Shown here: positions 3,484 through 17,043 of the stretch, piece after piece
Numbering within the stretch: position 1 is the first letter of the stretch
Layout of the letters: every line of letters starts with the position of its first letter
From: Neoroseomonas marina
GTDB lineage: Bacteria; Pseudomonadota; Alphaproteobacteria; Acetobacterales; Acetobacteraceae
Assembly (NCBI RefSeq): GCF_012927745.1
Contig: NZ_JABBKX010000004.1
Coordinates: forward strand, 124,001 to 188,000
Direction: 5' to 3'
Length of the DNA stretch: 64,000 nucleotides
Position numbers and translations under genes: made by a program
The notes under the pieces: model-generated
Told to the model about the DNA's origin: nothing
The model's database searches: none
Seen by the model: only the letters and a program-made list of their open reading frames with translations

Positions 3484-4107
3484 CTACGCGCCCCGCAGCG
3501 CGGCGGCAAGGGCGCGCATCTCCTCGGCCGCGACACCCTTCGGTGCCGCCTCCACCGCGCCGAGCCCCGCCATGAAAGCCTGCGCAAAGGCGGTCCGGTT
3601 GCCGATGGTGGCTCCGGCGAGCGGCAGGCCACGGTCGCGGATCGCCGCCGTCACGCTGTCCAGCAGGCGGCCCGAGGCCGGCGCGCGGTTCAGCACCAGC
3701 AGCACCTTGCGCCCTTCCTTCTTCGCCAGGTCCAGCGTCGCATCCATCGACCACAGGTCGGCGGCCGAGGGCTGGAGCGGCACGAGCACCAGATCGGAGG
3801 AGCGGATCGCGACCCGCGCATCGGTATCGTCGTGCGGGGCGGTGTCGAGCAGCACGACGTCGCTGTCCCGCCGCAAGCGGTCGAGAATCCCTGGCACGCG
3901 CCAGCCCGACGGGGCCTCGAAGTGCAGCGGGCGTGCCTTGGCGGAGCGGCCGCGCAGTTCGTCCCAGCGGGACAGGCTGTGCTGGGGGTCGACGTCGAGC
4001 AAGGCCACCCGCTGCCCCTGTTCGGCATAGGCGGTGGCGAGGTTCGCGGCGATGGTCGACTTGCCGGCGCCACCCTTGCGCTGCGCGACCGCGATGACGA
4101 AGGCCAT
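3484..4107 (-). CDS. ParA/MinD-type ATPase, orphan
   Basis: A 207-residue P-loop ATPase with the deviant Walker A box KGGAGKST at residues 11-18 and the Walker B stretch VALLDVDPQHSLSRW typical of ParA proteins. A second Asp-containing strand reads VVLLDTAPHDDTD. The length fits the small ParA/Soj or VirC1-like subgroup that lacks an N-terminal DNA-binding domain. There is no parB or centromere-like repeat nearby, so this is not an obvious partition cassette. It may position or segregate some other cargo. Transcription is probably shared with the CopD-like gene 9 bases downstream. Confidence 0.85.
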   Translation of the reverse strand: MAFVIAVAQRKGGAGKSTIAANLATAYAEQGQRVALLDVDPQHSLSRWDELRGRSAKARPLHFEAPSGWRVPGILDRLRRDSDVVLLDTAPHDDTDARVAIRSSDLVLVPLQPSAADLWSMDATLDLAKKEGRKVLLVLNRAPASGRLLDSVTAAIRDRGLPLAGATIGNRTAFAQAFMAGLGAVEAAPKGVAAEEMRALAAALRGA

Positions 4108-10024: not shown

Positions 10025-12409
10025 ATGACCGCAGAGGGCAAGTCGCGCCGCCAGGACACGCCCGATGCCGCGCGCCGGGTGGAAATCCTTCACGCGCTGG
10101 AACGCAAGCTGCTCTGGCTCTCGGCCTGGATGATCCACCACGCCAACCACATCCGGCCCAATCGCGACGGGCTGAAGGTGGGCGGGCACCAGGCCTCCTG
10201 CGCCTCCTCGGTCTCGATCCTCGCCGCACTCTATTTCGGCATCCTGCGACCGGCCGACCGCGTGGCGGTGAAGCCCCATGCCGGACCGGTCTTCCACGCC
10301 ATCAACTACCTTCTGGGTCGCCAGCAGCGCGAGAAGCTCGAGACGCTGCGTCAGTTCGGCGGCATCCAGCCCTATCCCTCTCGGGTCAAGGACGGGCCGG
10401 AGGTCGATTTCTCCACGGGCTCGGTCGGCCTCGGCGTGGCGCTCGCCTCCTTCGGCTCGCTCGTGCAGGACTACGTCCACCTGCACAACCTCGCGCCCGA
10501 GGGCGTGCCGCCCGGCCGCCATGTGGCCGTAGTGGGCGATGCGGAACTCGACGAGGGCAACATCTACGAGGCCCTGCTCGAAGGCTGGAAGCACGACATC
10601 CGCAATGTCTGGTGGGTGGTCGACTACAACCGCCAGTCCCTCGACAGCGTCGTCCCCGACCGGCTCTTCGGCCGCATCGAGGGCCTGTTCCGCGACATGG
10701 GCTGGAACGTCGTCACGCTGAAATACGGGCGGAAACTCGAGGCCGCCTTCGCGCGCCCGGACGGGGATCAGCTCCGCCGCTGGATCGACGATTGCCCGAA
10801 CAGCCTCTATGCGGCGCTGACCTTCCAGGGCGGGGCGGCGTGGCGCGCCGCGCTGCTCGCCGAGCTCGGCCGGGTCGACGGCATCCGCGCCATCATCGAC
10901 CCGCTGACCGACGACGAGCTTGCGGCGCTGATGAACAACCTCGGCGGCCATGACATCGAGACGCTGACCGAGGCCTTCCACGCCCAGGACGCCGAGGGCG
11001 ACCAGCCCACCTGCTTCATCGCCTACACGGTCAAGGGCATGGGCCTGCCCTTCGCGGGGCACAAGGACAATCACGCCGGGCTGATGACCAAGGAGCAGAT
11101 GGAGGGCTTCCGCCAGTCGCTCGGCATCCGCTCCGGCCATGAATGGGACCCCTTCGAGGGCCTGGGCATCCCCGAGGCGGAGCTGCGGGACTTCCTGGCC
11201 TCCGTTCCCTTCGCGAAGACGCTGAGGCCGGGCGGGCGCTCGCTCGCCTCGCCCACGATCCATGTGCCCGCCGCCTTCGCCCCGCCGCGGGTGGGCGAAG
11301 GGCGGAAACTCTCCACCCAGCAGGCCTTCGGCGAGATCCTTGCCGAGATCGGGCGCGGGCAGGGCGAATTCGCCGACCTCGCGAAGCGCATCGTCACCAC
11401 CAGCCCCGACGTGACCGTCAGCACCAATCTCGGGCCCTGGGTGAACCGCCGCGGCATCTTCGACCGGCACAAGAAGAACGACGTCTTCCGCGACGCGAAG
11501 CTGGCATCCGCGCAGCGCTGGGGCATGTCGCCCGAGGGCCAGCATGTCGAGCTCGGCATCGCGGAGCAGAACCTGTTCCTGGTGCTGGCCGGGCTGGGGC
11601 TGGCGGATCGGCTCTACGGCGCGCGGCTGCTGCCGATCGGCACGGTCTACGATCCCTTCGTCAACCGCGGCCTCGATGCGCTGATCTATGCCTGCTACCA
11701 GGATGCGCGGTTCCTGCTGGTCTCCACGCCCTCGGGCCTGACGCTGGCGCCGGAAGGGGGGCAGCACCAATCCGTCAACACGCCGCTGATCGGCATGGCG
11801 GCGGACCGGCTGGCCTCCTTCGAGCCGGCCCATGCCGACGAGCTCGCCATCCTGCTGCGCCACGCCTTCGACCACATGCAGAAGCCGGACGGTTCGGCCG
11901 TGTGGTTGCGGCTTTCGACGCGGGGGCTCGAGCAGCCGCCGCGGACGCTCGATCCGGCGGCGGTCATCGCCGGCGCGCATTGGGTCGTGCCGCCGGGGCA
12001 GGGGGCGCGGATCGCCATCGCCTACCAGGGCGCGCTCGCGCCCGAGGCGGTCGCCGCCTTCGAGGAGTTGCGGAGCGAGGAACCCATGGCGGGCCTGCTC
12101 GCCATCACGAGCCCTGACCGGCTGCATGCCGACTGGCTCGCGGTGCGGCGGCAGGTGCGGGGCGGCGTGCGGGCGGGCTCGCATATCGAACGCATCCTGG
12201 CCCCGCTCGCACCCGGCGCGGCGCTGGTCACGGTGCTGGACGGGCACCCGGCGGCCCATGCCTGGCTGGGGGCGGTGCGCGGGCAGCGCGTCGTGCCATT
12301 GGGGGTCGACCGTTTCGGCCAGGCAGGCGACATCCCGGATCTCTATCGGGAATACGGGCTCGACAGCGACGCCATCCTCGACGCCTGCGCCGAAGCGCTG
12401 CTGGGCTGA
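10025..12409 (+). CDS. AceE-like transketolase / pyruvate dehydrogenase E1-type enzyme
   Basis: A 794-residue thiamine diphosphate enzyme. The N-terminal half holds the cofactor motif GDAELDEGNIYEALLEGWKH followed by VVDYNRQSLD, a variant of the GDG-x-NN box in which the second Gly is Ala. Other E1/transketolase elements are KVGGHQASCAS, the VDFSTGSVGLG loop and KGMGLPFAGHKDNHAG. The C-terminal half has a transketolase pyrimidine-binding domain (HVELGIAEQNLFLVLAGLGL). It is closest in layout to homodimeric AceE but about 90 residues shorter. No E2 or E3 gene is adjacent, so a free-standing role with a different aldehyde acceptor is possible. The ATG at 10025 gives the natural N-terminus. Confidence 0.8.
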   Translation: MTAEGKSRRQDTPDAARRVEILHALERKLLWLSAWMIHHANHIRPNRDGLKVGGHQASCASSVSILAALYFGILRPADRVAVKPHAGPVFHAINYLLGRQQREKLETLRQFGGIQPYPSRVKDGPEVDFSTGSVGLGVALASFGSLVQDYVHLHNLAPEGVPPGRHVAVVGDAELDEGNIYEALLEGWKHDIRNVWWVVDYNRQSLDSVVPDRLFGRIEGLFRDMGWNVVTLKYGRKLEAAFARPDGDQLRRWIDDCPNSLYAALTFQGGAAWRAALLAELGRVDGIRAIIDPLTDDELAALMNNLGGHDIETLTEAFHAQDAEGDQPTCFIAYTVKGMGLPFAGHKDNHAGLMTKEQMEGFRQSLGIRSGHEWDPFEGLGIPEAELRDFLASVPFAKTLRPGGRSLASPTIHVPAAFAPPRVGEGRKLSTQQAFGEILAEIGRGQGEFADLAKRIVTTSPDVTVSTNLGPWVNRRGIFDRHKKNDVFRDAKLASAQRWGMSPEGQHVELGIAEQNLFLVLAGLGLADRLYGARLLPIGTVYDPFVNRGLDALIYACYQDARFLLVSTPSGLTLAPEGGQHQSVNTPLIGMAADRLASFEPAHADELAILLRHAFDHMQKPDGSAVWLRLSTRGLEQPPRTLDPAAVIAGAHWVVPPGQGARIAIAYQGALAPEAVAAFEELRSEEPMAGLLAITSPDRLHADWLAVRRQVRGGVRAGSHIERILAPLAPGAALVTVLDGHPAAHAWLGAVRGQRVVPLGVDRFGQAGDIPDLYREYGLDSDAILDACAEALLG

Positions 12410-12514
12410 CAGCCGCCGCGAACTTTTTTCGTCCGCCCTGTCGATTCCGCCGCCCGACATTCGTCGCATCGGCAGGAGGGTCGATGGGGCCTTCCGCGAT
12501 CGAGGAGAACGACG

Positions 12515-15080: not shown

Positions 15081-15165
15081 GCGGGCGTGGTGGAACTGGT
15101 AGACACGCCGGATTTAGGTTCCGGTGGCGCAAGCCGTGGGGGTTCAAATCCCTTCGCCCGCACCA
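15081..15165 (+). tRNA. tRNA-Leu (anticodon UAG)
   Basis: The 85-nt gene folds as a class II tRNA. The acceptor stem GCGGGCG (15081-15087) pairs with CGCCCGC (15155-15161), followed by discriminator A and an encoded CCA (15163-15165). The anticodon stem CCGGA/TCCGG encloses TTTAGGT, giving anticodon TAG at 15115-15117. The T arm contains GGTTCAAATCC, and a long variable arm is present, as expected for leucine. Confidence 0.97.
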
Positions 15166-15213: not shown

Positions 15214-17043
15214 ATGCAGGTCACCGAGCTCGCGAATGACGGTCTGAAGCGCGCTTATTCCGTCACCGTTTCCGCGGGCGACATCGCCTCCACGCGCGAC
15301 AAGCGCCTGGCCGAGATCGCCAAGACCGTGACCATGCCGGGCTTCCGCCCGGGCAAGGTCCCGATGTCGGTCGTCAGCCGCCGCTACGGTTCGGCCGTGC
15401 TGGGCGAGGTGCTGGAGCAGTCGGTGTCCGATTCGTCGCGCAAGGTGATCGACGACCGCGGGCTGAAGCCCGCGATGCAGCCGAAGATCGAGATCGTGAA
15501 CTTCGCCGAGGGCGCCGACCTCGAATTCAAGATGGAATTCGAGATCCTGCCGGATGTCCCGATGCCTGATTTCTCGGGAATCGCGCTGGAGCGGCTCAAG
15601 GCCGAGCCGACCGACGATGCGATCGAGAAGGCGCTGGCCTCCATCGCCGAGCGCAACGGCACGCTCGAGGACGCCGAGCCGCGCGCCGCGACCAAGGGCG
15701 ACGTGCTGGTCTGCGACTTCACCGGCCGCCTGCCCGCCGACCTGCTGAAGAACGGCCCTGGCCTCGGCGCCGTCCCGGGCAACCCCGGTGAGATGCCGAC
15801 CGGCTGGAACCTCTCGGTGCCGGCGGGTCTCGCCGCCGAGGTCTCGGCCATCGGGTCCGAGAAGGGCCTCCCCTATTTCGACGTGACGGTGAAGGGTTCG
15901 GCCGGCGAAGCGGGCGCGATCCGCATCGACGCGGGCGAGGCGGTTGCGGCGAAGCCCGGCGCCGTCCTGACGCTGTCGATCCTCGCCCATGTCGCCGCCG
16001 GCGCCCTGCCGGCCGGCGCTGCGGCGAGCTTCGGCCTGGAGGAGCGTTCGGCCGACGCGGCGCTGGGCGTCGCGCGCGCCAATGCCTCGCTCGGCGCGAA
16101 TGGCGACCGCGTCACCCTGACCCTGTCGGACGCCGCGGGCCTCGCCTTCGTGCGCCCGCTGATTGAGGTCGCGATCCCCGCCGGCGCGGCGGTTGACCTG
16201 ACGCTGCGCGTCGGCCCCGCGCGGCTCTATGCCGGCGCCGAGGAGCCCGAGGCCCGCATCTTCGCCGGCGGCACGGCCAGCGACATGCCGATCGAGGTCG
16301 GCGGTGCCGGCTTCATCCCGGGCTTCACCGAGCAGATGGACGGCATGGCGCCGGGCGAATCGCGCGACATCGACGTGACCTTCCCTGCCGACTACGGCTC
16401 GGCCGAGCTGGCCGGGAAGCATGCGCGCTTCACCATCGCGGCGAAGGCGCTGAAGACCCGCAAGCCGCGCGCGGTTGACGACGAACTCGCCAAGGCCGTC
16501 GGCATGGCCGACCTCGGCGCGCTGAAGGAGGCGATCCGCGGGTCGCTGCAGCGGGAGTATGACGCGCTGTCGCGCCTGAAGGTGAAGCGGGCGCTGCTCG
16601 ACAGCCTCGCCGACCGGGCGACCTTCCCGGTGCCGGACGGCATGGTGGATGCCGAGTTCAACCAGATCTGGCAGCGCGTGGAGGCCGACCTCAAGGCCGG
16701 GCGCCTCGACGACGAGGACAAGGGCAAGGACGAGGCGACGCTGCGGACCGAATACCGCACGATCGCCGAGCGCCGCATTCGCCTCGGCCTGATGCTGTCC
16801 GAGATCGGTCGGGCGAACAACGTCCAGGTCGCGCAGGATGAGATGACGCGCGCGGTCTACCAGGAAGCCTCGCGCTATCCCGGCCAGGAGCAGCAGGTCC
16901 TGGAGTTCTTCCGCAAGAATCCGCAGGCCGCGGAGAACCTTCGCGCGCCGCTGTTCGAGGAGAAGGTCGTCGACTTCATGCTCGAACTGGCGAAGGTCAC
17001 CGAGCGCCAGGTTGCGCCCGAGGAACTGACCGCCGCCGCCTGA
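15214..17043 (+). CDS. tig: Trigger factor with a large inserted domain
   Basis: Ribosome-associated chaperone and prolyl isomerase. The translation from ATG 15214 starts as trigger factors do (MQVTELANDGLKRAY), with the ribosome-docking signature MPGFRPGKVP at residues 41-50. An in-frame ATG 18 bases upstream is less likely. The FKBP-type PPIase domain begins at GDVLVCDFTGR (162-172) and resumes only at about residue 346, with SDMPIEVGGAGFIPGFTEQM and the PADYGSAELAGKHARF strand. Between them are about 168 extra in-frame residues not found in ordinary trigger factors (usual length 430-450; here 609). The C-terminal chaperone arms (about 415-609) look complete. It is monocistronic, with a terminator 28 bases after the stop. 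Confidence 0.93.
   Translation: MQVTELANDGLKRAYSVTVSAGDIASTRDKRLAEIAKTVTMPGFRPGKVPMSVVSRRYGSAVLGEVLEQSVSDSSRKVIDDRGLKPAMQPKIEIVNFAEGADLEFKMEFEILPDVPMPDFSGIALERLKAEPTDDAIEKALASIAERNGTLEDAEPRAATKGDVLVCDFTGRLPADLLKNGPGLGAVPGNPGEMPTGWNLSVPAGLAAEVSAIGSEKGLPYFDVTVKGSAGEAGAIRIDAGEAVAAKPGAVLTLSILAHVAAGALPAGAAASFGLEERSADAALGVARANASLGANGDRVTLTLSDAAGLAFVRPLIEVAIPAGAAVDLTLRVGPARLYAGAEEPEARIFAGGTASDMPIEVGGAGFIPGFTEQMDGMAPGESRDIDVTFPADYGSAELAGKHARFTIAAKALKTRKPRAVDDELAKAVGMADLGALKEAIRGSLQREYDALSRLKVKRALLDSLADRATFPVPDGMVDAEFNQIWQRVEADLKAGRLDDEDKGKDEATLRTEYRTIAERRIRLGLMLSEIGRANNVQVAQDEMTRAVYQEASRYPGQEQQVLEFFRKNPQAAENLRAPLFEEKVVDFMLELAKVTERQVAPEELTAAA
15740..16250 (+). other. Inserted domain inside the trigger factor PPIase region
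   Basis: Residues about 177-345 of the trigger factor. The segment opens with GPGLGAVPGNPGEMPTGW, continues with GSEKGLPYFDVTVKGSAG, and closes with GAAVDLTLRVGPARLYAGA. This order of motifs (GAVxGxPGxxPTGW, then GxExGxxYxDxxxxG, then a final AxDxTLRxGxPxL) resembles beta-sandwich, carbohydrate-binding-like modules that I associate with phage tail and tail-fibre proteins. Composition and codon use do not stand out from the host gene. The resemblance is my pattern recognition and needs a profile search; that it is an insertion is clear from the split FKBP domain. Confidence 0.7.

Follow-up and report, generated by a model that had tools for sequence, protein, structure and literature searches.

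Trigger factor is the textbook three-domain chaperone that meets new proteins at the ribosome, and it is a cytosolic protein. Its N-terminal domain carries the motif GFRxGKxP, which we take to be the ribosome-binding signature of the family. The N-terminal domain is followed by a peptidyl-prolyl isomerase (PPIase) domain and a C-terminal domain (TIGR00115; structure 1w26). In PMC6166725, the hydrophobic pocket of the E. coli protein is given as F168, F177, I195, F198, F217, Y221 and F233. PMC11013033 describes the IF domain of SlyD as bordered by Ala-Tyr-Gly and Leu-Xaa-Phe motifs, and reports that chaperone domains inserted near the active site of FKBP12 greatly increased folding activity. 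In the open PubMed Central (PMC) literature, searched through titles and abstract beginnings, we found no account of a trigger factor into which another domain is inserted. The present work concerns a trigger factor gene, tig, whose product has such a domain. It lies in a stretch of 64,000 nucleotides of Neoroseomonas marina DNA (contig NZ_JABBKX010000004.1, positions 124,001 to 188,000; hereafter the window), from a genome of 5.15 Mb. The inserted domain recurs among relatives, though patchily, is related by profile to phage tail modules, and sits in a protein whose pocket and ribosome signature are intact. The features are as follows, in window coordinates:

15081..15165, + strand: tRNA-Leu (TAG), 48 bp upstream of tig, a marker of the orthologous locus
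15214..17043, + strand: tig, trigger factor, 609 aa (open reading frame, Pfam, NCBIfam, phmmer against 1w26)
15214..15642, + strand: N-terminal ribosome-binding domain, residues 1-143, with GFRPGKVP at residues 43-50 (Pfam Trigger_N)
15661..15729, + strand: FKBP/PPIase piece 1, residues ~150-172, with F169 equivalent to E. coli F168 (alignment; start approximate)
15730..16260, + strand: insert, residues 173-349 (177 aa), a predicted beta-sandwich like that of carbohydrate-binding modules (CBMs) and a relative of phage tail modules (alignment, predicted fold, profiles)
16261..16473, + strand: FKBP/PPIase piece 2, residues ~350-420 (Pfam, alignment; end approximate)
16261..16473, + strand: pocket residues within piece 2, F350, I368, F371, F390, Y394 and F406, equivalent to E. 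coli F177, I195, F198, F217, Y221 and F233 (alignment)
16513..16986, + strand: C-terminal chaperone domain, residues 434-591 (Pfam Trigger_C)

The ATG at 15214 was chosen as the tig start because E. coli trigger factor 1w26 begins at the corresponding position; the same frame is open from a GTG at 15124 (639 aa). A preliminary description of the window had proposed a 609-residue trigger factor with an FKBP domain split in frame, and Pfam, NCBIfam and phmmer agree on this. Pfam placed Trigger_N at residues 1-143, Trigger_C at 434-591 and FKBP_C at 346-403 only. The match to the NCBIfam model TIGR00115 'tig' fell into two stretches and scored 380.9 bits, against a cut-off of 180.2, and the phmmer alignment with 1w26 was interrupted at the insert, with query residues 1-174 aligned to 1-173 and 348-605 to 175-427. 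That description gave the extent of the insert as about 168 residues at 15740-16250; it is 177 residues at 15730-16260. The window protein is like trigger factor in having the N-domain with its signature, the PPIase domain and the C-domain in order, in its pocket residues and in its tRNA-Leu locus, and is unlike 1w26, whose PPIase domain is unsplit, in being divided by a 177-residue predicted beta-sandwich of phage type.

The insert lies between the pocket residues F168 and F177 (E. coli numbering). Mapped on the 1w26 alignment, all seven pocket residues are kept in the window protein, and across 27 insert-bearing orthologs the pocket is invariant except at F177 (26/27). GFRPGK[VI]P is found in 27/27 of these orthologs. 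The chaperone around the insert looks intact. The upstream tRNA-Leu(TAG) was present at 46 of the 47 tig loci scanned (25 with the insert, and 21 of the 55 without it); the sole locus without it was a paralog, L002, discussed below. Because the tRNA gene is shared, insert-bearing and insert-free tig genes occupy the same locus. Downstream, the trigger-factor gene order tig-clpP-clpX-lon is kept in the relative L018, and ABC transporter genes, not clpP, follow tig in the window and in L005. The window tig is most likely the ordinary housekeeping trigger factor gene of N. marina, enlarged by an inserted module. Among named genomes the closest protein is that of Neoroseomonas oryzicola, with a whole-protein identity of 95%.

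Like FKBP proteins of the SlyD type, the window protein has an extra domain in its FKBP domain, near the active site by sequence position. Unlike them, its host is a ribosome-binding chaperone and its insert lies upstream, whereas the SlyD domain is a flap insertion of another fold. Flap motifs were placed by eye at DYG 393-395 and ARF 404-406 of the window protein, and presumably correspond to those of FKBP12. A sequence search for this correspondence returned trigger factors and two weak WhiA matches, and no FKBP12. By this placement the insert is far upstream of the SlyD-type flap, between F169 and F350. A natural trigger factor with a fourth, phage-tail-related domain between pocket residues shows that this housekeeping protein is extendable.

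To describe the distribution of the insert, the best 80 of 216 encoding sequences from the searched genome contigs were kept. An insert of 154-184 residues was present at the same position in 25 of these 80 relatives, and the other 55 had 5-16 residues there. Within the genus, trigger factor was found in 34/35 genomes, at 39 places in all, with two copies in five genomes; in each of the other 29 of the 34 a single one was found. The frame was open for at least 602 aa at 35 of the 39 places and for 547, 431, 118 and 105 aa at the rest. The insert profile was matched by all 30 of the genus loci read (30 of the 39 places). One genus copy, L139 (genome G581), had a single internal TAG, either a sequencing error or a broken copy. 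A class-level sample, which excluded the N. marina genome, gave 37 genomes with a trigger factor; 19 were read (one of them from the same family), and 19/19 had the canonical short loop. The preliminary description had named two ways in which its proposal might fail, namely that the insert is an ordinary variable loop of alphaproteobacterial trigger factors, or a chimeric assembly artefact. The 19/19 canonical loops and the 55 of 80 relatives without the insert refute the first, and recurrence of the architecture in separate assemblies, in 25/80 loci and 30/30 genus loci read, refutes the second; nothing was found in favour of either, and together we give these two explanations almost no probability.

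Searched with a 14-insert profile, 25 of 200 family genomes had matches, at 32 places, and the 30 loci read comprised 11 trigger factors and 19 other proteins. In a class-wide draw of 385 genomes (E 1e-4), at least two matched the module, and among the matches listed these were the N. marina genome and one other. Beyond the family the module seems rare. In the N. marina genome, the two trigger-factor genes were the only places where it was found.

The preliminary description had likened the insert to the beta-sandwiches of phage tail modules, and both the predicted fold and the profiles bear this out. Modelled alone, the insert was predicted as an all-beta domain (predicted local distance difference test, pLDDT, 86.8; predicted template modelling score, pTM, 0.83), and its blocks had mean pLDDT values of 72-93 in the full-protein model. 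Foldseek searches of the model against the Protein Data Bank (PDB) gave CBM4-2 (2y6j, TMq 0.64), CBM16, CBM22 and CBM61 modules, and also the phage tailspikes or fibres 8iq5, 8iq9, 7xyc and 5w6h; against a viral library, the 50 matches listed included many tail, fibre and uncharacterised phage proteins, minor tail proteins among them. The full-protein model matched the trigger factors 2vrh (E 1.6e-26) and 1w26 (6.1e-26) and, through the insert, CBM4-2, so that the rest of the predicted structure is still recognisable as trigger factor. CBM4-2, its related modules and the tailspike and fibre domains (8iq5, 7xyc) are thus like the modelled insert in being beta-sandwiches (TMq 0.46-0.64) and unlike it in sequence, with identities of just 16-20% and no Pfam CBM match for the inserts. 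At the profile level, hhalign, run with 14 inserts and 15 phage-side modules, gave a probability of 99.8 and an E of 5.2e-28 over 167 columns, and the insert profile scored 60 bits with gp49, a tail protein of Azospirillum phage Cd. Ten module carriers were scanned, phage Cd gp49 and nine of the 19 non-trigger-factor proteins: eight matched PHROG 'tail' families, three matched GP46, DUF2460 or Mu Gp48 in Pfam, and one, L106, had no match in PHROGs or Pfam. From the tail families matched, we infer that the carriers in bacterial genomes are prophage genes. Among viral contigs, nine encoded a module related to that of phage Cd and four encoded one related to that of L095, near-copies included; searched as single sequences, neither the L090 module nor the window insert had a relative there.

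The phage tail modules (phage Cd gp49, phrog_5939, and the GP46, DUF2460 and Mu Gp48 fusions) share with the insert the motif order PTxW, GxPYxDxRxxGT, VDxTLRxG. They differ from it in that most of their rows start with RNPRxEG and end with PQLExG, both of which the trigger-factor copies lack, and in that the family is sited in virion or tail proteins, of which the insert would be a derived relative relocated into a chaperone. The module follows differing tail or baseplate domains (GP46, DUF2460, Mu Gp48) in L090 (859-2076), L097 (112-1119) and L107 (844-1974), and seems to be mobile among tail genes too. L088, which matched neither the N nor the C domain of trigger factor, was counted as phage-side.

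Given these observations, we infer a history, a direction of transfer and a function for the insert. A CBM-like beta-sandwich module of a phage or prophage tail protein would have entered the FKBP domain between two pocket-lining residues, perhaps in a single event in a forebear of the Roseomonas-type Acetobacteraceae, with many later losses or exchanges. The chaperone keeps its PPIase pocket and the sequence features that go with ribosome docking. The insert would be a self-folding lobe placed beside the pocket, offering clients, perhaps nascent chains as the preliminary description had suggested, or a partner an extra binding site; as the core function would not depend on it, it could change fast. 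It may act as the SlyD IF domain does, at another site and with another fold. Because the folding activity of FKBP12 rises with inserted chaperone domains, a binding lobe was judged the likeliest role; that the insert is an accessory client- or partner-binding lobe of the housekeeping trigger factor, captured from a tail module, has in our judgement about an even chance. The engineered FKBP12 insertions of PMC11013033 may have a natural parallel in this insert, although the domain is unrelated to theirs.

A number of results weigh against this explanation. Single-sequence searches were weak or negative: the window insert had no match in PHROGs or Pfam and, among phages, matched Azospirillum phage Cd alone, at E 0.1. 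Searched singly, 27 inserts gave a best PHROG E of 0.0015, for one member, and nothing relevant in Pfam, with no CBM family; the insert profile had a single match among PDB sequences (E 0.33). Homology therefore rests on profiles and fold, and the profiles support a resemblance by descent and not by fold alone. The inserts of L023, L025 and L026 scored 1.3, 1.6 and 0.7 bits with the phage-side profile, for which the maximum of 320 shuffled sequences was 5.8, and 16.5, 8.8 and 2.0 bits with the Neoroseomonas insert profile (shuffled maximum 5.7). The full-protein model had a pTM of 0.52 only, too low for a firm placement of the insert relative to the pocket. The insert is absent from many close sister species and is therefore dispensable there. 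In ten close pairs picked by hand, the ratio of nonsynonymous to synonymous change (dN/dS), calculated by the crude NG86 method, which is unreliable at 37% identity, put insert constraint below that of the core in 10/10 and reached 0.72 and 0.97 for the insert in 2/10. Finally, when end columns were removed from the module tree, two changes were needed in place of one, and approximately unbiased (AU) tests rejected neither one capture nor several.

The number of captures was addressed with trees of both the host protein and the module. For the core trees, four near-copies and L001 were left out. On the core tree without insert columns (87 rows), insert presence took 8 changes, at least 7 of them forced by well-supported branches. 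The rooted gain/loss tree had 90 rows, 27 with the insert, and was rooted on 8 of 19 outgroup sequences, paralogs and 11 outgroup rows being left out; on it insert presence took either 8 gains or a single gain followed by 16 losses, and the likelihoods of the two were nearly equal (lnL -37.38 vs -37.41). For the module tree, 19 of 78 modules were removed beforehand (near-copies and two fragments), and L023, L025 and L026 were too divergent and left out. With full columns, the 30 trigger-factor inserts and 29 phage-side modules of this tree placed all the inserts in one clade, with support 98/96. The alternative, that related modules were captured several times over at one favoured site, has some appeal, since 8 gains suffice on the core tree where a single gain needs 16 losses, and it would also accommodate the two changes on the trimmed module tree. 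Further, inserts of Plastoroseomonas, Siccirubricoccus and Belnapia score higher with the phage-side profile, which is the broader one, than with the Neoroseomonas insert profile. We nevertheless consider several captures possible but less likely than not, given the single clade on full columns, which the AU test leaves unrejected even on trimmed columns (p 0.45), and an insertion site that is identical in all; in the junction codons inspected by eye a target duplication was not apparent, although no repeat search was made.

The loops of insert-free relatives also bear on losses. In 33 of 55 the loop is longer than canonical, and several share linker residues that flank the insert in a sister species. 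L031, L043, L051, L074 and others, for example, have insert-free loops (within 3517-3564) that are 2-11 residues over the canonical length and share linker residues with insert-bearing sisters. The longer loops fit imprecise loss, as deletion scars, or insertion into a loop that was already lengthened. With close species that have and lack the insert, the contribution of the PPIase domain to trigger factor becomes directly testable.

Three observations go beyond the preliminary description: the N. marina genome itself has a second insert-bearing copy, sister species differ in having the insert or lacking it, and in some lineages the insert diverges fast and within sharp bounds. The second copy, L002 (locus L204, 8754-10619, contig C1), is 57% identical to the first in the N-domain, 49% in the insert and 53% in the C-domain. 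At F168, I195, F198, F217 and Y221 of the pocket it has V, V, L, Y and H, respectively; L085 has a similar pocket change with F198 kept. Three divergent copies, L087, L091 and L103, keep the module but no longer have the GFRxGKxP signature or several of the pocket residues, with pocket positions that are less certain than in the others because identity outside the insert is 25-42%. Against the tig model, with its cut-off of 180.2, these three fall short at 123-126 bits and L002 passes at 299.1. The module thus persists where isomerase and docking features seem to be gone, and the paralogs suggest that a captured domain can outlast the PPIase pocket. Besides L204, the loci with such additional insert-bearing trigger-factor genes are L205, L206, L207, L208, L209, L210, L211 and L212, the last holding one more divergent copy.

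Persistence, tempo and constraint are also what bear on the main rival to a binding lobe, a tolerated passenger: a phage module lodged at a permissive turn, in a domain that the protein can do without, folding by itself, harmless, sometimes lost and without a selected function. Such a passenger would account for the patchy presence among sisters, for the two pairs with high insert dN/dS and, if they are deletion scars, for the 33 longer loops. The insert was less conserved than the core in 351/351 pairs, and insert dS exceeded core dS in all ten of the close pairs. In eight of those ten, however, insert dN/dS was 0.17-0.37 (core, 0.06-0.22 over the ten), although the constraint of folding alone could explain some of this. 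Also against a passenger are the presence of the insert in 30/30 genus loci read, its retention in five paralogs with altered pockets, and its shift in composition relative to phage-side modules, described below. We regard a functionless passenger as a possible explanation, but a tentative one. The most abrupt divergence was between L018 and L020, in which the core is 96% identical and the insert (tig residues 174-348) 37%, with sharp edges. Nucleotide identity was 0.52-0.64 in insert windows and 0.87-1.00 in other windows, and dS was 0.65 in the insert vs 0.13-0.32 in four neighbouring forward-coding ORFs. Allele replacement is a possible reading of this pattern. The pattern suggests a cassette, replaced or running free in some lineages and held in others.

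Sharply bounded divergence of this kind, the kinship to tail modules and the presence or absence of the insert among sister species would also fit a phage-facing cassette, in which the chaperone on the ribosome would use its tail-derived domain to recognise phage tail proteins that are nascent or being assembled, either to hinder them as a defence or as a folding aid exploited by the phage. But high divergence fits relaxed constraint too, no PADLOC match was found in the three proteins scanned, and no defence gene was noticed near the paralogs, although no systematic search was made; we think such a role improbable. A more elaborate version is that the insert is a fast-changing, exchangeable cassette by which the phage's own tail domain arms the ribosome-bound chaperone to capture or mis-assemble the tail proteins of infecting phages co-translationally, the paralogs lacking pocket and signature being dedicated effectors. 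This we offer as a conjecture with very little probability.

The fold neighbours CBM4, CBM16, CBM22 and CBM61 raise the question of whether the insert still binds sugar, for example on a glycosylated client or a polysaccharide precursor, and the preliminary description had suggested sugars as one possible ligand. Composition was compared between 22 trigger-factor inserts and 29 phage-side modules, the rows of which are related to one another. The median W/Y/F content was 4.77% in the inserts vs 7.65% in the phage-side modules, Ser/Thr was 10.1% vs 19.1%, and acidic residues were 10.6% vs 6.0%. An overall shift to fewer aromatics, Ser and Thr and more acidic residues might be that of a cytosolic domain, and runs opposite to the expectation for an aromatic sugar platform that had been retained. 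Sugar binding was marked down because of the depletion of aromatics, and the cytosolic location of trigger factor argues the same way.

The neighbourhoods of the paralogs are divided on this point. Directly before the N. marina paralog is a sulfotransferase-like gene (L204, 7901-8746; 23.5 bits, cut-off 22), and a similar gene (10483-11328) adjoins the gene at L209, which is 96.8% identical to the L204 paralog. At L206, a gene at 11684-12481 has sulfotransferase matches below the cut-off, with glycosyltransferases nearby (Glyco_trans_1_4, GT61). Among 13 scanned neighbour proteins of L205, L207, L208, L210 and L211, two of them without any match, there were no glycan genes. On this evidence a glycan-binding lobe is quite unlikely. 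No common functional theme emerged across the paralog neighbourhoods scanned, the other neighbours being Usp, MFS, ribonucleotide reductase, AMP-binding, rhodanese, DUF3237, Hint, HpcH/HpaI, DUF1190, MCP and short-chain dehydrogenase proteins.
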